Shown here one piece after another: positions 1-14,276 of a stretch of 39,602 nt of DNA (its first letter is position 1; the number at the start of each line of letters is the position of its first letter). Below the pieces are notes generated by a model. The model did not search any database and was not told where the DNA came from. It saw nothing but the letters and a program-made list of their open reading frames with translations. Source of the DNA: SAR324 cluster bacterium. Its GTDB lineage: Bacteria > SAR324 > NAC60-12. Made by a program: the position numbers and the translations under genes. The DNA is taken from contig JAQWOT010000219.1 in NCBI GenBank assembly GCA_029245725.1, positions 1-39,602 of the forward strand, in the 5' to 3' direction.

Positions 1-890
1 GGAAGAGCTTTCTCGATCATATCGGTCATCAGGTTGAGCAAGTGCTCTCCAGCCAGGGAAGATTTGCGGAAATGAGAGCGAAAAACGGCGATCTTCATCG
101 CATACTCTTCTTCCAGTTCACAGAAGGTCAGCCCGGGAATGGTGCTGTCACCGAATTGGTCGAAGGGAAAGATAAGGCTGATACCCGCACCATGTTTGAC
201 AAACTGATAGATATCTCCTGTAGACCGGGTTGAGAGTTTGATCCGGCATTCGACCTGATGCAGCTTGAGCAACTTTTCCACCTCATGGCGGACGTAGCTG
301 CCGATAGGAAATGCGATAAGATCCTCTCCGTGCAAGTCACGCAGATGGACTCTTTTTCGTGTTGCCAGTCGGTGCGTTGATGGCATCACGCAGACCATGC
401 GGACTTCAAAGATCTTCACAATTTCGATTTCTCGGCGATCAATCGGTAAATTGGCCAACCCAATGTCATATTGCCGTGTATGAATCCAGTCAAGCACAAC
501 AGTCCTCGGGTGACTCTCGACTTCAACGTTGATCTGTGGGTAGTGTTCCCAGAAGCGTTGCAAGACCTTTGGGAGCATCAAATGGGCAACCCCAGGCATA
601 GCGATGATGCGTAAATTGCCTTGACGCAGCATTCGGATGGATTCTGCGGTTTTGTCCAGTTCCCGAAGGCCAATGAAGGATTGCTCGACCTCATCGAAGA
701 ACAATTGTCCTTCTGGGGTGGGTTGCAGTCCGTTCTTGTGTCGTTCGAAGAGCTTGAAGCCGATTTCCTGTTCAAGTTCCAGAATCAGCCGGCTGACTGC
801 AGGTTGGGAAACAAAGAGGAGTTTTCCAGCCAGGGTGAAGCTGCCTGCACGAAAGACCGCCTGAAAGGCTTCTAACTGTCGGTAGTTCAT
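1..890 (-). CDS. LysR-type transcriptional regulator (OccR/NocR-like), C-terminus cut by window edge
   Basis: The minus frame is open from an ATG at 890 to the window edge, about 296 residues without a stop. It opens MNYRQLEAFQAVFRAGSFT and continues through a typical LysR winged helix-turn-helix (about residues 3-62, with SQPAVSRLI as recognition helix). A periplasmic-binding-like effector domain follows, containing LRIIAMPGVAHLMLPKVL. The helix-turn-helix and linker, including EVEQSFIGLREL, resemble the opine regulators OccR and NocR; that resemblance is from memory of the family. It lies 48 nt downstream of the dehydrogenase alpha subunit on the same strand, so it is probably the last or near-last gene of the catabolic operon and its likely regulator. 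Only a few C-terminal residues should be missing. Confidence is high for the family and low for the effector. Confidence 0.9.
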   Translation of the reverse strand, partial: MNYRQLEAFQAVFRAGSFTLAGKLLFVSQPAVSRLILELEQEIGFKLFERHKNGLQPTPEGQLFFDEVEQSFIGLRELDKTAESIRMLRQGNLRIIAMPGVAHLMLPKVLQRFWEHYPQINVEVESHPRTVVLDWIHTRQYDIGLANLPIDRREIEIVKIFEVRMVCVMPSTHRLATRKRVHLRDLHGEDLIAFPIGSYVRHEVEKLLKLHQVECRIKLSTRSTGDIYQFVKHGAGISLIFPFDQFGDSTIPGLTFCELEEEYAMKIAVFRSHFRKSSLAGEHLLNLMTDMIEKAL

Positions 891-938: not shown

Positions 939-2339
939 TTACTCAACACCGGTCAACTGGCCAAGGGTAACCGGTTTGATGGGCGAACGCACCCGAAAAT
1001 AACCAACATCTGCCGGAGAAACCTGACGCTCATCGGCAATGATCTCAGAGACGGTCAACCCACACATCCTCGCCTGGCAGGGACCCATTCCACAACGCAC
1101 CATTGGCTTGACCCGATCAGGGCTCAGGGCACCCAAGCGCACGGCATCTCGGATCTCACGAACACGAACCTCTTCACAGCGACAGACCAGAGTCTCCTCA
1201 TTCTTTGGAACCAACCATGGATGTCTGGGTGGGAAGAGTGTGTCGAGGAAAGGACGAATCGCCAACTCTTGATCCTGTTTCTTCAACAGAGGAGCTGCGA
1301 GAGCAGTCTGTTGTGCCAGATCGATCTTACCTAGGGCTCTTGCGGTTTCTAATGCCGCGAGCCGACCAGTCAGTACTGAATTGGCTGAGCCACAGACACG
1401 ACCTGAATCTCCAGCCACAGCGACATTCTCAATACTGGTGTTACCCCATTGATCGAGTACGGGTTCCCAGTAGCGCTGCTTCTCGTACCAAGTGTGCTCA
1501 CAACCAAGCTGTCGGGTGATCTGAATGTTGGGAACCACACCATGATGCAGAAGCAGGAGGTCTGCAGGTAGCTCCTTCCAAGGAGCAGATCCTTGCTGGA
1601 ATCGTACTTTTTGCAGGTGTCCCTCGCCATCCGCCTCCAGCCCTGTGACTCCAAGGTGAACTTTCGCTCCGGAAGTAAACATTTGCCAGAGCATGGCGAT
1701 TCCCTTGCGGAGATACTCATGCCCTCGTAGAGCCTTGGGTAAGTATGGCAGCGCCTGAAACGGTGCGAGGTGTGGGTTTGTGTCCAGATAGGCCGCAATT
1801 TTGACTCCAGCATCCAGCAAGCGGCAGGCGATCAATAACAACAGGGGCCCGCTGCCCAGCAAGACAATTTCACCACGGGGCAACAAACCAGAACTTTTGT
1901 AGAGGACATCTGCTGCTGTGCAGGCCAATACACCGGGAAGCGTCCAGCCTGGAAAGGGCATCGGTCGCTCCATCGCACCGGTGGCAATCAGGATGCGTTG
2001 CGCGTGGCAGGTTTCTGAAGGTCCTCCATCCTGCCCAATGTGATATAGCGTTAGATCTGGATCAATCTGCCAGATTGATCGGCCAGGCCGATACTCGGCT
2101 CCAGATGCACGGAATCGCTGAGCCAGTTCAAAGGCTTCCTGATAATCAGCACCCAGCTTCTGGAATTCGTCTGGACGCTGTTCCTCCAGATCTTCGATGT
2201 TTCTGTAGATTTGCCCTCCAACAGCTGGTTGTTCATCCAGCACCAGTACATTCAGTCCATGTTGGCGGGCTTCGACAGCCGCAGCCATGCCCGCGGGCCC
2301 AGCTCCAATGATCACGTAATCATATTGTGGCAGGCTCAT
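939..2339 (-). CDS. FAD/NAD(P)-binding dehydrogenase alpha subunit with C-terminal BFD-like [2Fe-2S] domain (HcnB/OoxA/LhpE type)
   Basis: A 466-residue protein of the alpha-subunit family found in D-hydroxyproline dehydrogenase, opine oxidase (OoxA/NoxA) and HcnABC cyanide synthase. An FAD Rossmann motif GAGPAG lies at residues 12-17 and a second dinucleotide motif GSGPL at 162-166; VAVAGDSG is the usual FAD closing motif. The C-terminus carries cysteines C386, C388, C416 and C421 in a C-x-C ... C-x4-C pattern, as in BFD-like [2Fe-2S] domains. An upstream GTG at 2345 is possible. I chose the ATG at 2339 because AAAGGAG sits at good spacing and its ATGA overlaps the stop of the gamma subunit. 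It probably passes electrons between the beta-subunit flavin and the respiratory chain. The substrate cannot be read from this subunit. Confidence 0.9.
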   Translation of the reverse strand: MSLPQYDYVIIGAGPAGMAAAVEARQHGLNVLVLDEQPAVGGQIYRNIEDLEEQRPDEFQKLGADYQEAFELAQRFRASGAEYRPGRSIWQIDPDLTLYHIGQDGGPSETCHAQRILIATGAMERPMPFPGWTLPGVLACTAADVLYKSSGLLPRGEIVLLGSGPLLLLIACRLLDAGVKIAAYLDTNPHLAPFQALPYLPKALRGHEYLRKGIAMLWQMFTSGAKVHLGVTGLEADGEGHLQKVRFQQGSAPWKELPADLLLLHHGVVPNIQITRQLGCEHTWYEKQRYWEPVLDQWGNTSIENVAVAGDSGRVCGSANSVLTGRLAALETARALGKIDLAQQTALAAPLLKKQDQELAIRPFLDTLFPPRHPWLVPKNEETLVCRCEEVRVREIRDAVRLGALSPDRVKPMVRCGMGPCQARMCGLTVSEIIADERQVSPADVGYFRVRSPIKPVTLGQLTGVE

Positions 2340-2626
2340 GCGCACTCTCCTTTCTTCAATTGACGCTGGATGTTCATACCCTCCCGAACTTGGATCATGC
2401 AGGATTGTTGATTGGGCTGGCCGTCGATCTCAAGCAGGCAGTCAAAACAGATCCCCATCATGCAGAAGGCTGCCCTGGTTTCTCCGCTAACCAACGACTT
2501 TCGTAGCATCAGGTGGCCTTCACCCATTAGGGCTGCAGCCACAGTCTGTGCTGGAGCAACCTGGTAAGTCTTTTCTTCAAAGGTGATTTGGATTGTCTTG
2601 GCAACATTAGGCGGCGACTGGAACAT
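2336..2626 (-). CDS. Small [2Fe-2S] ferredoxin-like gamma subunit of the flavin dehydrogenase (HcnA/LhpF type)
   Basis: A 96-residue protein with a plant-type [2Fe-2S] pattern: C55-x4-C60-x2-C63 and C76 (AAFCMMGICFDCLLEIDG, then QQSC). This is the size and motif of the small gamma subunits of heterotrimeric amine and imino acid dehydrogenases, which wire two flavin subunits together. It lies between the beta and alpha subunit genes, overlapping the first by about 20 nt and the second by ATGA. A TTG at 2653 would extend the N-terminus. I prefer the ATG at 2626 because GAGG lies just upstream and the extra residues look non-conserved. Confidence 0.88.
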   Translation of the reverse strand: MFQSPPNVAKTIQITFEEKTYQVAPAQTVAAALMGEGHLMLRKSLVSGETRAAFCMMGICFDCLLEIDGQPNQQSCMIQVREGMNIQRQLKKGECA

Positions 2627-3734
2627 CAAACCTCGCAGAATCAAAAACTTCAAACATCGGTTGGGTTTGACCGGACAGAATCCAGTCGACTAGATAGGAA
2701 CTATGAATCGAAGCCAGACTGACTCCACTGTGACTGGTTACGGCAAATGCTCCGGGGCAACTTTGTGACTCTACATAAACTGGTTTTTGGTCAGGTGTGA
2801 GCACTCGCAGGGAGCCCCAGCTGCGGATCAATTGTAGGTTTTTCAGGGTTGGAAAGACTGCCAGGGCATGGTTGGCAATGTCTTGTAGGACACCGTTGGT
2901 AGTACCGAGGTCATAACCAACTTCTTCGTGGGAAGCTCCGAACATGAAGCTCCCATCGGCATTTTGGCGGATGCGTCCCGTGGCGAAGGGGAAAAGGTGA
3001 TCCGTTTTTTCTGTCACGAGTACCTGACCCCGTTGAGGTCGTACGGGCACCTTGATGCCCACCAGAGCAGACAACTTGGTGGTAGCCAAGCCGCTGGCGA
3101 TCACGAGTTTTCTGGTTGAGAATCTTGTTGTGTTGGTCTGAATCAGGAAACCATCGTTGTTGTACTCAATCGTCTGTACATCTGCACTTGGGAAGAACTG
3201 TCCCTTGAGTTGAGTGAAAGCTTGGTGCAGTGCTCGTAACAAATGGAGAGGATTGGCAAAGCCATCGTGGGGACAGAAGGAAGCTCCAGAAACCATTGGT
3301 CCCAAGGGCAACTTGGGGATCATGCTCTGCAGCTCATCCCGACTGATCATCTCACAGTTATAGGTGCCTGTCAGCGACTGGGTTCGCATCTCTTCGAGGA
3401 ACTTACTTCGCTTGCTGTATTCTTCCTCTCCCACACAAATTTCGAAGCCTCCAGTTCGATGATAGTACTGGGGAATCCCGGTCTGGTCCTCGAGCTTTTC
3501 CGCAAAGGTTGACCACAGTTCTGTGGCTTCCTGGCTCCACTGCGCATAACGTGGCATACCGTGTCCCTTGCCCTGTAACCAGACCAGTCCAAAATTTCCT
3601 CGAGAAGCTGTCAACTGAAAATCCTCACGATCCAGCATGACGACTGAGGCTTTTTGCTCTGCCAGTCCATAGGCTACAGCGGCGCCAATCACACCGCCTC
3701 CGATTACTACAACATCAGCTTTCATCGTATTCAT
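2607..3734 (-). CDS. FAD-dependent oxidoreductase, DAO family, catalytic beta subunit (sarcosine oxidase beta/HcnC/OoxB type)
   Basis: A 375-residue DAO-fold flavoprotein. The N-terminal FAD motif VVVIGGGVIGAAVAYGLA lies at about residues 8-25. The C-terminal part has the family-typical GAFAVTSHSGVSLASIHSS stretch that closes over the flavin. In this family the subunit oxidises the C-N bond of a secondary amine or D-amino acid; HcnC, OoxB and the D-hydroxyproline dehydrogenase beta subunit are relatives. With the gamma and alpha genes that follow, it makes a complete dehydrogenase trimer. Its ATG overlaps the stop of the upstream ATPase gene as ATGA (3731-3734), so it is translationally coupled to the transporter. 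The substrate is unknown. The neighbouring epimerase-like enzyme suggests that the D- or epimerised form of an imported compound is oxidised here. Confidence 0.9.
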   Translation of the reverse strand: MNTMKADVVVIGGGVIGAAVAYGLAEQKASVVMLDREDFQLTASRGNFGLVWLQGKGHGMPRYAQWSQEATELWSTFAEKLEDQTGIPQYYHRTGGFEICVGEEEYSKRSKFLEEMRTQSLTGTYNCEMISRDELQSMIPKLPLGPMVSGASFCPHDGFANPLHLLRALHQAFTQLKGQFFPSADVQTIEYNNDGFLIQTNTTRFSTRKLVIASGLATTKLSALVGIKVPVRPQRGQVLVTEKTDHLFPFATGRIRQNADGSFMFGASHEEVGYDLGTTNGVLQDIANHALAVFPTLKNLQLIRSWGSLRVLTPDQKPVYVESQSCPGAFAVTSHSGVSLASIHSSYLVDWILSGQTQPMFEVFDSARFDVPVAA

Positions 3735-4750
3735 GGGGATGCTTCTGCTAGTTGATTTGACTGATTGAGTTCTTCCAAACGGACACAGGCAGTCTGGTGG
3801 GGATTACTCTCTTCTGATTGTAATTGCAAAAAGGCTTGCTGGCAAACCGTTGTTGCGTGAGGACAACGCGGTGCAAACCGACAACCCGGAGGCGGGTTGA
3901 TCGGTCGTGAGACCTCACCGCGAATCGTTGGAACCGGACGAATGACTCGAGGATCAGGAACCGGCACAGCGTTGATCAAAGCCCGTGTGTAGGGATGCTG
4001 AGGGTTACGGATGACCTTCCACGTTGGCCCCATCTCCACAGCCTGGCCCAAATACATAATCATCAGTCGGTCTGAAATGTGCCCAAGAATGGAGAGATCA
4101 TGCGAGACATAAACGCAGGAAAAATGTCTTTTGCTCGCCAGGTCTTTCAGCAGATCCAGGATTCCAGCACGTATGGAGACATCCAGCATGGATAGGGGCT
4201 CATCTGCGACAACCATCCGAGGTTCCATCACCAGGGCGCTGGCAATACCAACCCGTTGACGCTCCCCACCGCTGAGCTCATGAGGATAGCGTTCAGCATA
4301 CTTGGCTGGAGGCAAGCCAACCGAAGCTAGCATGTCCACACTCCGCTCAAGAATCTCTTTTTCTGGCCAAAGTTTAAGTGCTCGGGGTCCTTCAGCAACG
4401 GTTTCCAGCACCCGAAAGCGAGGATTCAGTGACTCATAGGGATCCTGAAAGATCATCTGAACCTGCCTCCGATACCAGGCTTGTTCACTAGCGAGCAACT
4501 GGTCCACACGTTTCCCAGAGAAGTGAATTTCTCCTGCCGAAGGTTGTAGCATCCCAGCAATCATCAAACACGTTGTGGATTTGCCACAGCCCGATTCCCC
4601 AGCGATACCCAGCACTTCGTTTTCACCCAAGGTCAGGTTGACGGACTGAACCGCCTTGATCAAGCTGACAGGCTGCCTCTGAAGCTTCTGCAACACTCCC
4701 TGGCGCACCTCAAAATGTTTGGTGACGTTATTCAGTTCAAGGAGCGCCAT
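3731..4750 (-). CDS. ABC transporter ATP-binding protein, OppF/DppF type
   Basis: A 339-residue nucleotide-binding subunit of a peptide/opine/nickel-class (Opp/Dpp) importer. Walker A is GESGCGKST, the signature is LSGGERQRVGIA, and Walker B is MVVADEPLSMLDV. The C-terminal oligopeptide domain has the usual cysteine motif GCRFAPRCPHA. The second ATPase gene lies immediately upstream and overlaps by 19 nt. Starting at the ATG at 4750 gives a normal family length, with AAGGAG just upstream. It acts at the cytoplasmic face of the membrane, paired with the OppD-like subunit. Confidence 0.93.
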   Translation of the reverse strand: MALLELNNVTKHFEVRQGVLQKLQRQPVSLIKAVQSVNLTLGENEVLGIAGESGCGKSTTCLMIAGMLQPSAGEIHFSGKRVDQLLASEQAWYRRQVQMIFQDPYESLNPRFRVLETVAEGPRALKLWPEKEILERSVDMLASVGLPPAKYAERYPHELSGGERQRVGIASALVMEPRMVVADEPLSMLDVSIRAGILDLLKDLASKRHFSCVYVSHDLSILGHISDRLMIMYLGQAVEMGPTWKVIRNPQHPYTRALINAVPVPDPRVIRPVPTIRGEVSRPINPPPGCRFAPRCPHATTVCQQAFLQLQSEESNPHQTACVRLEELNQSNQLAEASP

Positions 4751-5754
4751 GTCTCCTTCTCGCTGGCTTTTTCTCGGAGTAGTTGTGCCTCACGATGGCG
4801 GACACAGCGGACTTCGTGCAAGGGTTGGATCGTAATGTTTTCAGGATTTCTCTGGCTACATTGCTGCACACAGAATGGGCAGCGCTCTAGAAAGGGACAA
4901 CTGCTGGGAGCACCCAACAAGGTTGGTGGAGAACCTGGAATGGAGATCAGCTTCTGCTGCAAATTTTGGATCGATGGAAAAGCGTTCTTTAAGCCAAGGG
5001 TGTAAGGGTGACAGGGTGTGTCGAATAGATCATTTGCTGGAGCCTGCTCCATGATTTGCCCACCATACATTACAGCGATGCGATCACTCATCTCCGCAAT
5101 CACCGCGATGTCATGGGTAATCAGGATGATCGAACTAGAAATCTGAGAACGGATTTCTCGAATTCTACGCAGGATGCGCTCCTGAACCAAAACGTCCAGC
5201 CCAGTAGTGGGTTCATCCATTACTACCAGTCCTGGATCCAATGCCAGCGACATCGCAATCATCGCTCTTTGCCGCATTCCTCCGGAAAACTCATGTGGAA
5301 AGTTCTTCATCAGGTCTGGCTGGAGTCCAACGATATCAAAGAGTTCAGTGACCCGCTCACGTGCCTCTGACTTGGAAACATTCTTGTGTGCCTGGATAGC
5401 TTCAACGACTTGGTCCCCCACACGATAGACGGGGTTGAGGGAGTTCATCGCGCTCTGTGGAACCAGGGACATTCGAGCCCAGAGGATCTTCTCACGGAAC
5501 TTTGCCTCGGAGAGTCGAGTTAGCTCTTCTCCTTCATATTCAATCGACTGAGCAGACATCTTCGCATTGTCTGGAAGCAACCTCATCAGCGCCCGGATCA
5601 ATGTAGACTTGCCACAACCCGATTCTCCAGCAATTCCAAAGACCTCGTTCTTGTTGACAAAGAAGGTGACTCCGCTAACGGCATGGATCTCCCCCATTTG
5701 CGTCTGATAGCGGACCGTCAGATCCTGCACTTGAAGGAGTCGTTCTCCAGTCAT
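4732..5754 (-). CDS. ABC transporter ATP-binding protein, OppD/DppD type
   Basis: A 340-residue ATPase. Walker A is GESGCGKSTLIRAL, the Q-loop is LVPQSAMNSLNP, the signature is FSGGMRQRAMIAMSLA and Walker B is LVVMDEPTTGLDV. A C-terminal oligopeptide/dipeptide domain has a CPFLERCPFC cysteine motif, a known feature of DppD/OppD proteins. The start ATG (5754) overlaps the permease stop as ATGA. Together with the OppF-like protein it forms the ATPase heterodimer that powers the two permeases encoded upstream. Confidence 0.93.
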   Translation of the reverse strand: MTGERLLQVQDLTVRYQTQMGEIHAVSGVTFFVNKNEVFGIAGESGCGKSTLIRALMRLLPDNAKMSAQSIEYEGEELTRLSEAKFREKILWARMSLVPQSAMNSLNPVYRVGDQVVEAIQAHKNVSKSEARERVTELFDIVGLQPDLMKNFPHEFSGGMRQRAMIAMSLALDPGLVVMDEPTTGLDVLVQERILRRIREIRSQISSSIILITHDIAVIAEMSDRIAVMYGGQIMEQAPANDLFDTPCHPYTLGLKNAFPSIQNLQQKLISIPGSPPTLLGAPSSCPFLERCPFCVQQCSQRNPENITIQPLHEVRCVRHREAQLLREKASEKETWRSLN

Positions 5755-6647
5755 CGCTTCCTCAGTCTGGGATTGGCGACTTCCTCATAGGCGCGACTGA
5801 CAAAGACGAGTGAGGTGACAAGCAATACAATACAAAGGGACGGAGCAGTGAACCACCACCAGGCTACCCTGGTCTTCCCAGATAGCCAGAGTTCGTAGAG
5901 CATACCTCCCCAGCTAATCGTTTCACCGTCACCGAATCCAAGAAAACTAGCGCTGGCTTCCGTAATGATTGACCAAGCAATGTTGAAGGCTGCGTACAGT
6001 AAAAGTAGTGGCAAGACGTTGGGCAGGATGTGACGATAAATGATGCGGAGGTGACTGCACCCTCGAGCCCGGGCTGCTGCGATGAACTGCCGTTGCTTGA
6101 TTGAAATCGTTTGGGCTCGAATCACTCGGGCAGAGGTTCGCCAGATAATCAATACGATTGCAAGGATAACGAACTCGAGTTCGCGTCCAAATAGGGAAAT
6201 CAGCACAATGATGAATGGCAAAAAAGGCATCCCGTAGAGCACATCAGTGAAGCGCATCAGCACCTCGTCGATCTTTCCGCCATAGTAACCTGCAATCAGG
6301 CCGATGTTAGCACCAATCAGGATTGAGATCCCTCCTGAAATAGCACCAATCAACAGGGTCGTTCGAGTTGCCAGGATCAGTTGAGAGAAGAGATCGTAGC
6401 CCAAATGAGTCGTGCCCATCGGGAATTCCCAGGAAGGTGGGCGAAGCGACGCAAACTCTCCTTCCTGATCATAGAGCATTTCCCAAGGATCGTGGGGGGC
6501 CAACCATGGAGCGAAGATAGCAACCACGAGAAATAGTACGATAAACACAAAGCCCACTGCGCTCAGGCGATTGCCCATGATGATTCGGTAGTGTTCCCCC
6601 AAAATCCGGCGCCAGGCACTGTTCTGTGGTAGTTCAGAGGCTGGCAT
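5751..6647 (-). CDS. ABC transporter permease, OppC/DppC type
   Basis: A permease of 298 residues from the ATG at 6647; a GTG at 6686 would add 13 residues and lengthen the overlap with the preceding gene. It has an N-terminal membrane segment (VGFVFIVLFLVVAIFAPWLA), the family motif MGTTHLGYDLFSQLI, and a cytoplasmic EAA-type loop (AARARGCSHLRIIYRHILPN) that contacts the ATPases. About six membrane segments are visible. It is separated from permease B by the enolase-superfamily gene, which is unusual because the oppB and oppC genes normally touch. The start at 6647 overlaps the upstream gene by 14 nt. Confidence 0.92.
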   Translation of the reverse strand: MPASELPQNSAWRRILGEHYRIIMGNRLSAVGFVFIVLFLVVAIFAPWLAPHDPWEMLYDQEGEFASLRPPSWEFPMGTTHLGYDLFSQLILATRTTLLIGAISGGISILIGANIGLIAGYYGGKIDEVLMRFTDVLYGMPFLPFIIVLISLFGRELEFVILAIVLIIWRTSARVIRAQTISIKQRQFIAAARARGCSHLRIIYRHILPNVLPLLLLYAAFNIAWSIITEASASFLGFGDGETISWGGMLYELWLSGKTRVAWWWFTAPSLCIVLLVTSLVFVSRAYEEVANPRLRKR

Positions 6648-7767
6648 GATATTCGTCTTCAAGATATTGCCGAATTTTCTCTTCACTCACTTTCACTCCT
6701 AGACCTGGGGCCTCAGGAAGACGAACTGTTCCAGATTGAATCCAATCAGAGAAGTCTGTTACATCATCACTCATCCTTAGAGTTGACATATAGGCGTGAC
6801 CAAAAGGCACTAGATTTGGCAAGACTGTCCCTAGATGCAGGGAAGCACTCTGAGTGATACCAAGTTCGATCATGCTGTTCATCATCACTCGTTTGTTATC
6901 TGCTTCGACAGCTTTACCAATCTCCAAGCCACGCAGTAGACCGCCATTCTTTGAGATCTTGATGCTGAAAATATCTGCAGCACCCTTGGCAATAATTTCT
7001 CTGGCATTTTCAGGATTCTGGAGGCTCTCATCCACTGAAATTGGAACGCCATACTGGCGAAGGTCGTTGAGTCCTTCGAGATCATCTGCCACCAATGGTT
7101 GCTCCACCAGCACCAGTGGGAGATCCTGAACATTTTGGAAAAACTCCTTGGCTTCCTCACGAGTCCAGCCCTGATTGGCATCAGTCATCAGATGAGCATC
7201 TTCAGGTAGCGCAGCGAACACCTGTTTCAACCTGTTCAGCTCTTCCAAAATGGGCTTGTGTCCCATTTTCAGCATAAAGGTGCGGAAGCCCCCGGAAAGC
7301 TTAGGCTGAATAACTGCTAAATCGTCACTTGCGGTACCCGAAGATGTGGGCCAGAGCAGTTCTAGCTGTTGGTGGTGACGAGTGCCCAACAATTCCCAAA
7401 CGGGTTTTTGGTGATAGTGCCCGAGAGCATCATGCATTGCCACGTCACAAGCAGCAGCGAGTGATCCTCCTGTAGGAAGCGGCGACTGTGGTCCCTGCCA
7501 ATTGTTCAGTTCCTGGCCAAGAATCGGTTGAAGCACTCCTCGATGAACTTCTTGCATCGTGGACTCAGGAGTGTCACCTGTGAATCTAATTCCACCAGGG
7601 TCTGCTTCTCCCCACCCCACCAGTCCAGTGGACGTCTCTACGCACAGAATCAGAACATCGCTATGGGTCAAAGTGCCGTAGACTTTGGAGAGATGATAGG
7701 GAGTCACCAAGGGAATCCGAACCCGATAGACATCGTAGGCAATCACTTGGGAAGAGGAATGATTCAT
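6634..7767 (-). CDS. Enolase-superfamily enzyme, mandelate racemase/muconate lactonizing (MLE) subgroup, probable epimerase or racemase
   Basis: A 377-residue protein with the full-length MLE fold. Metal ligands are visible as D196 (LMTDANQGW), E222 (LVEQPL) and D246 (SVDES). On one face the acid/base lysine is K270 (IFSIKISKNGG). On the other face the usual KxK reads M165-L-K167, so the first lysine is methionine but the second, which does the proton transfer in dipeptide and hydroxyproline-betaine epimerases, is kept. A lysine pair on opposite faces fits 1,1-proton transfer (epimerisation) of an alpha-amino acid derivative; that is inference. The ATG at 7767 has GGAG at 7-nt spacing. It is embedded between two permease genes, so its substrate is very likely the imported compound. 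Dehydratase or cycloisomerase activity is not excluded. Confidence 0.88.
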   Translation of the reverse strand: MNHSSSQVIAYDVYRVRIPLVTPYHLSKVYGTLTHSDVLILCVETSTGLVGWGEADPGGIRFTGDTPESTMQEVHRGVLQPILGQELNNWQGPQSPLPTGGSLAAACDVAMHDALGHYHQKPVWELLGTRHHQQLELLWPTSSGTASDDLAVIQPKLSGGFRTFMLKMGHKPILEELNRLKQVFAALPEDAHLMTDANQGWTREEAKEFFQNVQDLPLVLVEQPLVADDLEGLNDLRQYGVPISVDESLQNPENAREIIAKGAADIFSIKISKNGGLLRGLEIGKAVEADNKRVMMNSMIELGITQSASLHLGTVLPNLVPFGHAYMSTLRMSDDVTDFSDWIQSGTVRLPEAPGLGVKVSEEKIRQYLEDEYHASL

Positions 7768-7780
7768 CAATATTCTCCAG

Positions 7781-8767
7781 TCATGTCAGGCCTGTGTTGG
7801 AAACCTTGATCCGTGGGTCTAGGTAGCAGTAGAGAATGTCGGTCAGGAAGTTCAGCCCAATGACTAAGATCGCGAGCATCAGAAAGGTTCCCTGTGCGAC
7901 TGGATAATCATGAGCCGCTGCGGACTCTACCATCAGTTGTCCCATTCCTGGCCAGGAGAAAAGTGATTCAACGACAACTTGTCCACCTACTGCAAAGCCG
8001 ACCATGATGGACGCCAGAGTGACGACTCCTAACAGGGCATTTCGAGCTGCGTGTCGGAACATGACGATACGTGGTTTCAGGCCCTTGGCCTTTGCGAGTT
8101 CGATATAATCACTACCCAGCACTTCTAGCATACTGTCTCGCATGACTAGCATGGGTGTCGCAAGATAGTAGGCCCCAACGGTGATGGTTGGCAGCACAAT
8201 CCTTTCCCAGAAAGCTGGCATGATCAGCAACTCCAACAGGCTGTCTGGCCGTTGGCCAGGAGGATACATTCCTCCAGTTGGGAAAAGCCCTAGTCGATAA
8301 CTCAGAACCATTAATAGCAGGAGTCCAGTAATGAAAGGTGGAGCCGCTTGAAAAATTAGCCCAACGATTGTCCCTCCCACATCAAGTGGCCCATTCCTGC
8401 GCCAAGCCATCCAGATTCCACAGCCAATGCCTACGGTTAGCGTGAGGCACAGGCCGGTCAGCATCAGCAACAGGGTATTCCAGAAACGGTAGGCGATAAC
8501 GGATGTGACTTCCTGCGCGGAAACAAAAGAACGCCCCCACTCGAGAGTCACCAAATTTTGAAGATAAATGAAGTACTGTTGCCAGACAGGAAGGTCGAGA
8601 CCGAAGGCAGCTTTCATTCTTTCTTGGACAGCAGGATCCATGGCTGGACTGATCACCTGCATGGTGGCTTCACCCGGAAGCATTCGGAAGAGCACAAATA
8701 GAATCGAGGCGACGGCGAAGAGCGTGATGAGAGTGTAGACCAATCGGCGCAGAATGTAGTCAAACAT
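7781..8767 (-). CDS. ABC transporter permease, OppB/DppB type
   Basis: A 328-residue permease. The N-terminus MFDYILRRLVYTLITLFAV is the classic OppB/DppB opening segment, and FRMLPGEA follows as expected. The cytoplasmic EAA-like loop reads LAKAKGLKPRIVMFRHAARN. Around six transmembrane helices are apparent. It lies 74 nt downstream of the binding protein and 13 nt upstream of the enolase-superfamily gene. It would form the channel with the OppC-like subunit. Confidence 0.93.
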   Translation of the reverse strand: MFDYILRRLVYTLITLFAVASILFVLFRMLPGEATMQVISPAMDPAVQERMKAAFGLDLPVWQQYFIYLQNLVTLEWGRSFVSAQEVTSVIAYRFWNTLLLMLTGLCLTLTVGIGCGIWMAWRRNGPLDVGGTIVGLIFQAAPPFITGLLLLMVLSYRLGLFPTGGMYPPGQRPDSLLELLIMPAFWERIVLPTITVGAYYLATPMLVMRDSMLEVLGSDYIELAKAKGLKPRIVMFRHAARNALLGVVTLASIMVGFAVGGQVVVESLFSWPGMGQLMVESAAAHDYPVAQGTFLMLAILVIGLNFLTDILYCYLDPRIKVSNTGLT

Positions 8768-8841: not shown

Positions 8842-10458
8842 TCAGGCTGGGTAATGCAGCCGGTCGCTGCTGTCCCAACTATATCCTGCGGCAGCCAAGA
8901 TCTCACGAGCTTTCTTGGTGCTGGAAGGCCGGGCTTTGAGTGAGGCGTTGTGCCAGAACTCATTGGCTGGCGCAATCACAGAACCACCCTTGTCAGCAAA
9001 ACCAGACATCACGACGGCCTGGATGACATCTCGGGGCACTACGTGATCGATTGCTGCTCGGAAGATCGGATCCTGTAGGGGGCCTCGGAGGTGGTTGAAC
9101 ATGAAACCATACCAGCCATGGCTGGAGTAGCCCTTGCCCACAATACCATTGATCTTGTTCAGATCCTCTACCAAAGCTGGCTTGAGAATGTAACGTGTAC
9201 GGTCACACTCTCCCGTTTCGATCGCAGCAGCCATCGCATCGTGACTACCGTAAGTTACACGGATGATGCCCGCACACTTTGGAGCTCGGAAATGAGACTT
9301 ATTGGCAGAAACCTTCAGTTCCTTACCCCGGTCCCAGTAGTCAAATTTGAAGGGGCCACTACCAATCGGATTTTCATTGGCAAACTTCAACACGTCATCA
9401 ACATTGACCTTCTCGGGAATGTCTTTCCAAATGTGTTGCGGCAGAATGAAAATTTGAGCGAAGAAGTTGATCATCAGCGGAGCGTGTGGAGCCGTTAGCT
9501 TGATGCGCAACGTGTTCTTGCCAGTAATGGTGACCGATTCAAACTTCTCTAACGAAGAAATGAAGAATGGAGCCTTCCACTGTTTGTGATAATCGAAGGT
9601 AAACTTCACATCAGCCGGAGTGACCGGTTTTCCATCATGGAAGGTCATGCCCTCTCGTAAGGTGATATCAACAGTGGTTGAATCAACAGCTGTAATAGAT
9701 GTTGCAGCCCAGGGCTCAATGCTGCCATCCGGACCAACCTGCAATAGTCGGTCATAGATCATTCGCAGTTCTTTGAATTCGTTGGAATCTGTCACAGAGA
9801 CCGGATTCAAATTTTTAAGTGGAGAAGTTTGTCCAGTCCGAATGTAACCATCTCCACCGGTGGTTGTGGCCGCAATGTCTGTCCACAGACTGCCGATTCC
9901 CTCACCGACTTGCGGAACGACTCCTTTGAGGCGATCCTCCCTGTAGGCGTTCGTCATGCTCGGATAAACTATTGGACTGCTGGCTGCGTCATTGTAAATT
10001 GTCTCTTGAATTTGTAGTACCAAATCCCGTCGCTTCTGCGGATCCATCTCCACTTGTTGGGCATCGCTGAGTTCGTTGACCCGAGAATTATTGTAACCCC
10101 ACTTGTTGTAGTTACCATCACGGTGATGCATCATCGCTGTGAAGGTCTCTGGATCAATCCGGTTCGCTCGACCAGTCCAGCGGACAATGAACATATCAAA
10201 GTCTTTCTCGTTGAAAACCTTGCCGATACCCATATTGTAATCTTCAGCGGCCAACTTCACATCCCAACCAATCTTCTTACAAGCCTGGGTGATCAACCGT
10301 CCCATCTCCGGACGAACCGGATCGAATCCAGCATTCGCTGTCAACAATGTCATGCTCTCTACTGGCTTGCCTGCGGCATGAGCCAGACTAGGTAGGCCAG
10401 AAGCAGCAGCTACCCCAGCCAATGCTCCTGTCCTCTTCAAAAATTCTCTTCGTTTCAT
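8842..10458 (-). CDS. Tat-exported ABC solute-binding protein, SBP family 5, with circularly permuted domain order
   Basis: A 538-residue periplasmic binding protein for the Opp/Dpp-type importer. Residues 1-29 are a twin-arginine signal (KRREFLKRT, then a hydrophobic stretch ending AHA). The order after that is odd. Residues about 30-185 (from GKPVESMTLLTANAG through IVYPSMTNAYREDRLKGV) look like the C-terminal segment of family-5 binding proteins. Residues about 203-538 (from YIRTGQTSPLKNLNPVS, MTFHDGKPVTPADVKFTFDY) look like the normal N-terminal and middle parts. The protein ends AAAGYSWDSSDRLHYPA, the point where a normal family member would continue with the residues found here at 30. 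Total length is normal, so this looks like a true circular permutation, not a fusion or duplication. The start ATG follows GGAGGAATC. It is first in the operon, as usual for a highly expressed binding protein. Confidence 0.9.
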   Translation of the reverse strand: MKRREFLKRTGALAGVAAASGLPSLAHAAGKPVESMTLLTANAGFDPVRPEMGRLITQACKKIGWDVKLAAEDYNMGIGKVFNEKDFDMFIVRWTGRANRIDPETFTAMMHHRDGNYNKWGYNNSRVNELSDAQQVEMDPQKRRDLVLQIQETIYNDAASSPIVYPSMTNAYREDRLKGVVPQVGEGIGSLWTDIAATTTGGDGYIRTGQTSPLKNLNPVSVTDSNEFKELRMIYDRLLQVGPDGSIEPWAATSITAVDSTTVDITLREGMTFHDGKPVTPADVKFTFDYHKQWKAPFFISSLEKFESVTITGKNTLRIKLTAPHAPLMINFFAQIFILPQHIWKDIPEKVNVDDVLKFANENPIGSGPFKFDYWDRGKELKVSANKSHFRAPKCAGIIRVTYGSHDAMAAAIETGECDRTRYILKPALVEDLNKINGIVGKGYSSHGWYGFMFNHLRGPLQDPIFRAAIDHVVPRDVIQAVVMSGFADKGGSVIAPANEFWHNASLKARPSSTKKAREILAAAGYSWDSSDRLHYPA

Positions 10459-12309: not shown

Positions 12310-13086
12310 ATGGAGCTTAAACTGAAGGGAAACAAGGTAATTGTGTCGGCTGGTGGCTCTGGTATCGGGCTAGCCATTGTCCAGGGATTTCTGGCAGAAG
12401 GTGCGGAGGTGGCGACCTGTGACATTAATCCAGAGTTGGTTTCTGAGTTGAAGAGAAATCATCCCTCAGTTTACGGTGAAGAGGTGGACGTTGCTGATGC
12501 TCAGGCAGTTCAACAATTCACACAGTCTGCCATTGGAAAACTGGGTGGTCTGGATTGTTTAGTCAACAACGCTGGCATTGCAGGGCCAACCTCGCCGATC
12601 GAAGAAATTCCAGAAGCAGACTGGGAACGCTGTCTTTCGGTTTGTCTGAACAGTCAGTATTTTTTCATAAAAGCATCTGTTTTCTCTCTTCGGAAGAGTA
12701 GCAATCCCTCCATCGTCAATATCTCCTCGGCAGCTGGGAAATATGGCTTCGCCTTCCGAACTCCCTACTCTACCGCCAAGTGGGGTGTAATCGGCCTGAC
12801 CAAGTCGCTAGCGATTGAATTGGGACCTGATCAGATTCGTGTCAATGCGATCCTCCCGGGTTTGGTATCGGGAGAACGTCAGAAACGAGTACTGACAGCC
12901 AAAGCTGAAAAAAGAGGCGTCTCCTTTGACGAAATCGAGCAGGAAGCTTTCTCTTACACCTCCATTAAGTCCTATGTCACTCCGCAGGACATTGCTAACC
13001 AAGTACTATACCTGGCGTCAGAGAGAGGAAAACTAATCTCTGGTCAGGCAATCTCGGTAGATGGAGACACTCGTATGCTAGCCTAA
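12310..13086 (+). CDS. Short-chain dehydrogenase/reductase (SDR)
   Basis: A 258-residue classical SDR. The cofactor motif reads SAGGSGIG (residues 13-20), with alanine where the first glycine of TGxxxGIG is usual. NNAG lies at 86-89 and the catalytic residues are S140, Y153 and K157 (YSTAK). The aspartate in CDIN after the second strand suggests NAD(H). It acts in the cytosol on an unknown alcohol or ketone. I chose the ATG at 12310 because GGAG lies 6 nt upstream; the ATG at 12298 has no such site. Its stop overlaps, tail to tail, the stop of the BKACE gene, so the two are convergent and not one operon. A joint role in a beta-keto acid route is possible but unproven. Confidence 0.9.
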   Translation: MELKLKGNKVIVSAGGSGIGLAIVQGFLAEGAEVATCDINPELVSELKRNHPSVYGEEVDVADAQAVQQFTQSAIGKLGGLDCLVNNAGIAGPTSPIEEIPEADWERCLSVCLNSQYFFIKASVFSLRKSSNPSIVNISSAAGKYGFAFRTPYSTAKWGVIGLTKSLAIELGPDQIRVNAILPGLVSGERQKRVLTAKAEKRGVSFDEIEQEAFSYTSIKSYVTPQDIANQVLYLASERGKLISGQAISVDGDTRMLA

Positions 13087-14009
13087 AAATTGACCTGATT
13101 CTCTCCTTTTAGTTGCAGAATTTCTCTCGCTTCATCCGGAGTGGCCACTTCTACGGAGAGTCCTTCCAAGACCTGCCGGGCCTTCTGGACCTGTTGAGCG
13201 TTGCTCTCTGCCAGCACTCCTTTGGACAACCAGAGAGAGTCTTCCAATCCAACTCGTACGGAACCACCCTGGGCCGCCGACATGGCGGCAATTTGCATCT
13301 GCGAACGTCCCGCCCCAAGAACTGACCAGACATACTGATCGCCAAACAACCGGTCAGCCGTTCGTTTCATGTGAGCCACATCTTCTGGGTGAGTGCCAAT
13401 CCCTCCAAGTATGCCAAAGACTGTCTGAACCAACAGCGGTGCTTTGACCAGTCCACGATCCAAAAAATGGGCGAGATTGTAGAGATGACTGGTGTCGTAA
13501 CATTCAAATTCGAAGCGCGTACCGTTGGCGGAACAAGTCGTCAGGATCTCCTCAATATCTTGAAAAGTATTCTTGAACACCAGATCTCGACTATTCTCCA
13601 AGTGCTGGCGTTCCCAGTCATGCTTGAAGCTCGTGTAGCGTTTCAGCATCGGATAGAGCCCAAAGTTCATCGAGCCCATGTTCAGGGAAGCCAACTCAGG
13701 TTGAAGCTCCTTGGCAGGAGACATCCGCTGGGCCAAGGTCATCTGAGGAGCGCCACCAGTAGTGATGTTGATCACTACGTTACAAGCCTGCTTGATTCGA
13801 GGCAGGAACTTCAGAAAGGCTTCTGGAGTTTGCACTGGACGGCCTGTCTCCTCATCCCGTGCGTGTAAGTGAATGATGGACGCACCAGCTTGTACAGCAG
13901 CAATCGCCGCTTCAGCAATTTCGTCTGCCGTGACTGGCAGATATGGAGACATTGAAGGTGTATGGATTGCTCCTGTGGGAGCACAGGTCAGGATGGCTTT
14001 TTGAGTCAT
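13083..14009 (-). CDS. BKACE family enzyme (DUF849), beta-keto acid cleavage enzyme
   Basis: A 308-residue TIM-barrel enzyme of the Kce/BKACE family, which condenses a beta-keto acid with acetyl-CoA and splits it into acetoacetate and a CoA ester. The opening CAPTGAIHTPSMSPYLPVT is diagnostic. The zinc ligands H47 and H49 are visible in HLHARD, and the later VRVGLED carries the family's metal-binding glutamate. The ATG at 14009 has GGAG at 8-nt spacing; an earlier start at 14027 does not. The founding member acts in lysine fermentation, but the family is diverse and also includes carnitine/betaine catabolism members. The substrate here is not predictable by eye. Confidence 0.92.
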   Translation of the reverse strand: MTQKAILTCAPTGAIHTPSMSPYLPVTADEIAEAAIAAVQAGASIIHLHARDEETGRPVQTPEAFLKFLPRIKQACNVVINITTGGAPQMTLAQRMSPAKELQPELASLNMGSMNFGLYPMLKRYTSFKHDWERQHLENSRDLVFKNTFQDIEEILTTCSANGTRFEFECYDTSHLYNLAHFLDRGLVKAPLLVQTVFGILGGIGTHPEDVAHMKRTADRLFGDQYVWSVLGAGRSQMQIAAMSAAQGGSVRVGLEDSLWLSKGVLAESNAQQVQKARQVLEGLSVEVATPDEAREILQLKGENQVNF

Positions 14010-14276
14010 AGGATATTCTCCAGGCAAGAATTATTGGTTTGCCTGCGATCAAACGCTATCAAGGACTTCGATGCAAGAGTTTTATGAAAGTAACGAGTCC
14101 CCAAGGCCGATCAGCATTCCAGATGTTGGTTCCAAGAACAGAATTGAAAATACCTGGCTAACAACATCAGTGATTGAGATTTTATGGGAAATGTCTAGAT
14201 TCTCATGGTTTTCCATGTTGGAGAGATCATAGTTTTTGATCAACAAATTCATTGTCATTTCTGTTGAAGGCTCATC
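14010..14276. other. Divergent intergenic region with two inverted repeats
   Basis: This 267-nt spacer separates the BKACE and serine hydrolase genes. It contains CATGG-TTTT-CCATG (14204-14217) and GATCA-N7-TGATC (14225-14241), both within 75 nt of the hydrolase start. Either could be an operator or a weak RNA hairpin. No gene is apparent. Confidence 0.4.

Follow-up and report, generated by a model that had tools for sequence, protein, structure and literature searches.

A circularly permuted family-5 solute-binding protein of an Opp/Dpp-type importer, and the old clade that one permutation very probably founded

Is the protein encoded at 8842-10458 of the window (the whole stretch of 39,602 nucleotides that we analyzed, from a SAR324 cluster bacterium) a genuine circular permutation of the family-5 solute-binding proteins, or does it only look like one? 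The initial annotation, made from the sequence alone, had proposed that about 155 residues were moved to the N-terminus behind a Tat signal. The open reading frame that it named is present, with 538 codons from an ATG start, although the annotation omitted the strand, which is the minus strand. We consider it very likely that the product (also labelled P0001) is a permuted family-5 binding protein of an Opp/Dpp-type importer and belongs to an old clade that goes back to one circular permutation. The features on which this reading draws are collected in Table 1.

Table 1. Features of the permuted binding protein and its operon (window coordinates)
Feature	Position	Strand	Basis
LysR-type regulator, truncated at window edge	3..890	-	PF00126/PF03466
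FAD / [2Fe-2S] oxidoreductase resembling sarcosine oxidase alpha	939..2345	-	PF07992, PF04324, PF17806; TIGR01372 below cut-off
FAD-dependent amino-acid-oxidase-like enzyme (DAO, ThiO-like)	2607..3734	-	PF01266; TIGR02352 below cut-off
DppF/OppF-type ATPase	3731..4750	-	PF00005 + PF08352
DppD/OppD-type ATPase	4732..5754	-	PF00005 + PF08352
DppC/OppC-type permease, start codon uncertain	5751..6686	-	PF00528 + PF12911
Enolase-superfamily enzyme (MR/MLE, muconate-cycloisomerase/dipeptide-epimerase-like), between permeases	6634..7770	-	PF13378/PF02746
DppB/OppB-type permease	7781..8767	-	PF00528 + PF19300
Permuted SBP_bac_5 substrate-binding protein, 538 aa	8842..10458	-	ORF, Pfam, PDB-chain matches, rotation scan
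Conventional N-terminal part, residues 206-536; new C-terminus ends AAGYSWDSSDRLHYP	8851..9843	-	Pfam, PDB-chain matches, alignment
Joining linker, residues 188-205, old C-terminus to old N-terminus	9844..9897	-	alignments A1, A2
Block relocated to N-terminus, residues 30-187, corresponding to C-terminal part of conventional family-5 proteins	9898..10371	-	Pfam, PDB-chain, rejoined-sequence matches
Tat-type signal peptide, residues 1-28, RREFLK ... AHA-A	10375..10458	-	TIGR01409 match + motif; cleavage site inferred

The only Pfam family found in the protein is SBP_bac_5 (PF00496; 203 bits, E 9.8e-60, against a cut-off of 32.4), and it occurs in two stretches, with profile positions 2-284 on residues 247-532 and positions 292-366 upstream, on a fragment holding residues about 31-108. 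Since the later section of the profile lies N-terminal to the earlier one, the order of the parts is swapped. Alignment of the two parts with solved structures agreed: in phmmer matches to PDB chains (6i3g, 5u4o and 5isu among the alignments printed), query residues 203-531 aligned with the N-terminal part of the chain, residues 47-180 with its C-terminal part. A match of residues 30-185 to the N-terminal part in normal order did not occur in the Pfam, PDB or rotation comparisons. The protein reached none of the NCBIfam cut-offs for the NikA, DppA, OppA and GsiB equivalogs, the best being Opp5A_nikA at 120.5 bits against 600. Judged by its sequence, it is a permuted derivative of SBP_bac_5 and not a standard member. 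The predicted Tat signal was also recovered, in a leader that starts MKRREFLKRTGALAG, ends AHA-A and scores 20.9 bits with TIGR01409 (cut-off 16.7), a match at the new N-terminus that indicates that export has been retained, as had been supposed.

Does the end of the protein join naturally to residue 30? When the C-terminus of the mature protein was fused to that residue, one alignment with 8efz_A replaced two (94.7 bits, query 24-483), and a slightly different cut gave 96.6 bits (query 15-500 on chain 24-489). With small gaps only, the alignment runs through the join, RLHYPA followed by GKPVESMTLLTA, against GIRVKDGKKLEFTLTA in 8efz, as the initial annotation had anticipated. In a rotation scan scored against a profile built from 50 conventional proteins only, the native order gave 243 bits with a match that stopped at profile position 330; the best rotation, at residue 190, gave 331 bits over profile positions 9-479 of 493. 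Together with the swapped Pfam and PDB order, this gain upholds the claim of a genuine permutation. The 50 conventional proteins served as a control, and every one of them scored best unrotated or within 2.9 bits of it. Rotation gained 40-93 bits in 34 of the 39 permuted proteins described below; the other five, all long stop-to-stop frames, probably kept leader or extension sequence between the rejoined pieces. Within the joining linker, W192 is nearly invariant (alignments A1 and A2).

The swapped order is not peculiar to the genome of the window; it is common to an old and widespread clade. A search for homologues with the same order yielded 39 distinct permuted relatives, whose sources are SAR324, Proteobacteria, Desulfacinum and, as complete plasmids, rhizobia and haloarchaea. 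Among the other genomes of the window's class, four matched over the whole query at 79-99% identity and one at 34% (G002, G006, G013 and G047 are among the same-order genomes). The GTDB species set added homologues of 54-99% identity from bins of alpha-, gamma- and deltaproteobacteria and from an isolate, Desulfacinum hydrothermale DSM 13146, and homologues at about 25-34% were found on complete plasmids of Maritalea, Neorhizobium, Nitratireductor, Roseomonas and Ketogulonicigenium and on several of haloarchaea, e.g., Halalkalicoccus jeotgali and Haladaptatus. With the permuted alignment as query, matches were obtained in 6 of the 52 genomes of the window's phylum, 9 of 190 in the class of an alphaproteobacterial locus (one match partial), 1 of 185 in the class of a gammaproteobacterial locus and 4 of 198 in the Desulfacinum phylum, the seed genome being included in each of the last three counts. 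The absence of a permuted match from 101 genomes of one bacterial phylum and from 97 of the phylum of G063 is uninformative alone, and a scan of viral contigs returned four proteins, all of conventional order. The two orders were readily told apart: where both types were listed, the matches of permuted proteins spanned the full profile with 782-823 bits, those of conventional proteins covered part of it and did not exceed 188 bits, and with separate N-part and C-part profiles every locus that had both parts was either permuted or conventional (0 ambiguous).

The leaders of the permuted relatives vary, being of Sec type in some and an RR motif with a lipobox in haloarchaea, so that a Tat leader does not characterize the clade as a whole. 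In three haloarchaeal proteins (L042, L047 and L049) the RR leader carries a lipobox-like cysteine, and the new N-terminus is therefore probably a membrane anchor.

A maximum-likelihood tree of the 39 permuted proteins, rotated in silico, and 50 conventional ones placed all permuted proteins on one side of a single branch (SH-aLRT 99). Trees of the N-part and the C-part separately again gave a single permuted clade, with local support of 96 each. Furthermore, the native-order matches of all permuted proteins end at profile positions 329-340, which defines a common cut. One clade, two halves that agree and one cut are best fitted by a single old event that founded the clade. The conventional proteins were sampled for the most part from three sources, namely the window's genome, a few seed genomes and the best matches to the rotated profile, and a sister of conventional order could thus still exist. 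The permuted genes are scattered patchily over several phyla in two domains and are often plasmid-borne, a distribution suggestive of horizontal transfer.

What event could have produced such a protein? The simplest route is a tandem duplication from which the outer parts were later lost; it would have connected the old termini by a short linker and placed the new ones at AAGY-W-x-x-x-R-L-x-Y-P / GKPVE. No intermediate gene of the permuted lineage, tandem and partly deleted, was found; a candidate in Thermoplasmata (L041, a frame of 1547 aa) proved to be a large multi-domain protein that contains a domain of conventional order. Elsewhere, a same-strand tandem of two conventional family-5 genes occurs (L108 and L114, G009:C15:279007-281971). 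A duplicate of this type is a possible starting point for a permutation; on the tree, it is not sister to the permuted clade.

Several other histories could leave a gene of this appearance. A normal gene can look permuted after an assembly misjoin or a local inversion in a binned metagenome, and the draft genome of the window comprises 407 contigs, but the same order in independent assemblies (G002, G006, G013, G047 and others), on complete plasmids such as those of Halalkalicoccus, Maritalea, Nitratireductor and Ketogulonicigenium, and in the D. hydrothermale isolate effectively rules this out. That the gene is a decaying or non-functional remnant is hardly more credible: its frame is fully open, export signals are retained among the permuted proteins, and the transporter operon is kept from the window's genome to haloarchaea. 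Against its 99%-identical relative (L021), we obtained a dN of 0.003, a dS of 0.26 and a dN/dS of 0.012, which indicates strong purifying selection in both parts of the protein; against relatives of 80-88% identity, dS was saturated.

Fusion of the front block of another family-5 gene to a truncated one would give an order identical to that of a circular permutation. Such a chimera is unlikely in our judgment. Each half alone puts all permuted proteins into one clade, even if the C-part tree has only 151 columns and many weak branches, and the C-terminus and residue 30 rejoin with nothing missing or doubled, as expected from one parent. Did the permutation instead arise several times, always in one natural loop? 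The loop that follows AAGY-W-x-x-x-R-L-x-Y-P could plausibly tolerate new termini, and branching deep within the permuted clade is only moderately supported, but the single change on the tree and the identical cut in every permuted protein make independent events very unlikely. One circular permutation of one parent gene is the reading we retain.

The permuted gene is the first of a complete Opp/Dpp-type operon with two permeases and two oligo_HPY ATPases. In all 20 of the P0001-like loci (L021-L040) the DppB/OppB-type permease follows the binding protein, and the order permease, enolase-superfamily enzyme, permease, ATPase is kept in most of them. The oxidase genes are found in about half of these loci, many of the others ending at a contig edge. 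The product would act as the binding component of this Opp/Dpp-type ABC importer and probably delivers a short peptide or an amino-acid derivative to the permease encoded next to it. Distant permuted relatives retain the transporter and have other neighbors, including M20 and M28 peptidases, creatininases, a hydantoinase/oxoprolinase, a dipeptide epimerase and a D-aminoacylase, and with this company the cargo is likely to consist of amino-acid derivatives, cyclic amides or short peptides. For the window, we would guess, with low confidence, at a compound that is isomerized and then oxidized.

The nearest solved structure to the enzyme between the permeases is 1jpm, an L-Ala-D/L-Glu epimerase. 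The motif of the muconate-cycloisomerase/epimerase subgroup is K-x-K; here it reads M-x-K (MLKMG), with Met in all 17 P0001-like loci compared, and the opposite Lys (SIKISK) is present wherever covered. This combination suggests one-base chemistry rather than that of a classical epimerase. Farther along the window, the product of 13083-14027 (minus strand) strongly matches NF053538 (551 bits, cut-off 430), 3,5-dioxohexanoate:acetyl-CoA acetone transferase, of a keto-acid cleavage enzyme class.

How would the swapped order affect the fold? In family-5 proteins, lobe I is built from both ends of the chain and lobe II is continuous; in NikA, the lobe boundaries lie near 246 and 470. Query residues 216-527 aligned with NikA 16-325, which places the cut near NikA 336, inside lobe II. 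The chain would then start in lobe II, cross to lobe I, traverse the joined linker, complete lobe I, cross back and end in lobe II, so that lobe I becomes continuous and lobe II is assembled from both chain ends. From the known family-5 domain boundaries we infer that the connectivity is altered as to which lobe is split, the hinge crossovers still numbering two. Fold and ligand closure are probably as in DppA or NikA. AlphaFold2 models were poor both with 19 alignment rows that included leaders and with 17 leader-trimmed rows (pLDDT 59.4 and 56.8, pTM about 0.6). With these models as queries, the best Foldseek matches spanned only about 310-360 columns, the best E-value being 8e-13 to NikZ (about 330 columns, TM about 0.4).

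Family-5 binding proteins are among the commonest nutrient receptors of prokaryotes, and the automatic label "ABC transporter substrate-binding protein" conceals permutations of this kind. The permutation described here is natural, selected and widespread, and the permuted proteins coexist, often within one genome, with numerous conventional relatives, which allows effects of connectivity on folding, export, lobe opening and permease coupling to be tested by comparison. The clade also supplies ready-made new termini for biosensors.

We conclude that this is probably the first natural permutation described in family-5 (cluster C): a single ancient event that gave rise to a widespread, previously unreported subfamily in bacteria and haloarchaea, changing the lobe that is split while keeping the transporter partnership. 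In a full-text search of the non-subscription literature, beyond which a report may have gone unseen, none of the titles and abstracts listed concerned a permuted family-5 protein. The one naturally permuted binding protein to emerge from it was Tp0684/MglB-2 of Treponema pallidum, a permuted cluster B glucose binder that retains binding and conformational change (PMC4990184). The two have in common that a binding protein of an ABC transporter was permuted naturally and that the permutation is conserved in a clade, and the haloarchaeal lipobox anchor at the new N-terminus recalls the tethering idea proposed for MglB-2 (PMC4990184). Tp0684/MglB-2, however, is of Type I/cluster B, binds sugar and is cut in its N lobe (PMC4990184), whereas the window protein is of family-5 and contains no Type I/cluster B (MglB-like) sequence, its only Pfam match being SBP_bac_5 and its PDB relatives, among the matches listed, being of family-5 type. 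The permutation of MglB-2 also adds a fourth hinge crossing (PMC4990184), whereas the number of crossings in the window protein would be unchanged. To the conventional SBP_bac_5/cluster C proteins (CcNikZ-II 8efz, AppA 1xoc, NikZ 4oet, DppA 1dpp and NikA 1zlq) it is homologous over approximately its whole length once rotated, and it shares their operon type of two permeases and two oligo_HPY ATPases; it differs from them in that the order of its parts is swapped and its new termini map to the interior of a conventional chain.
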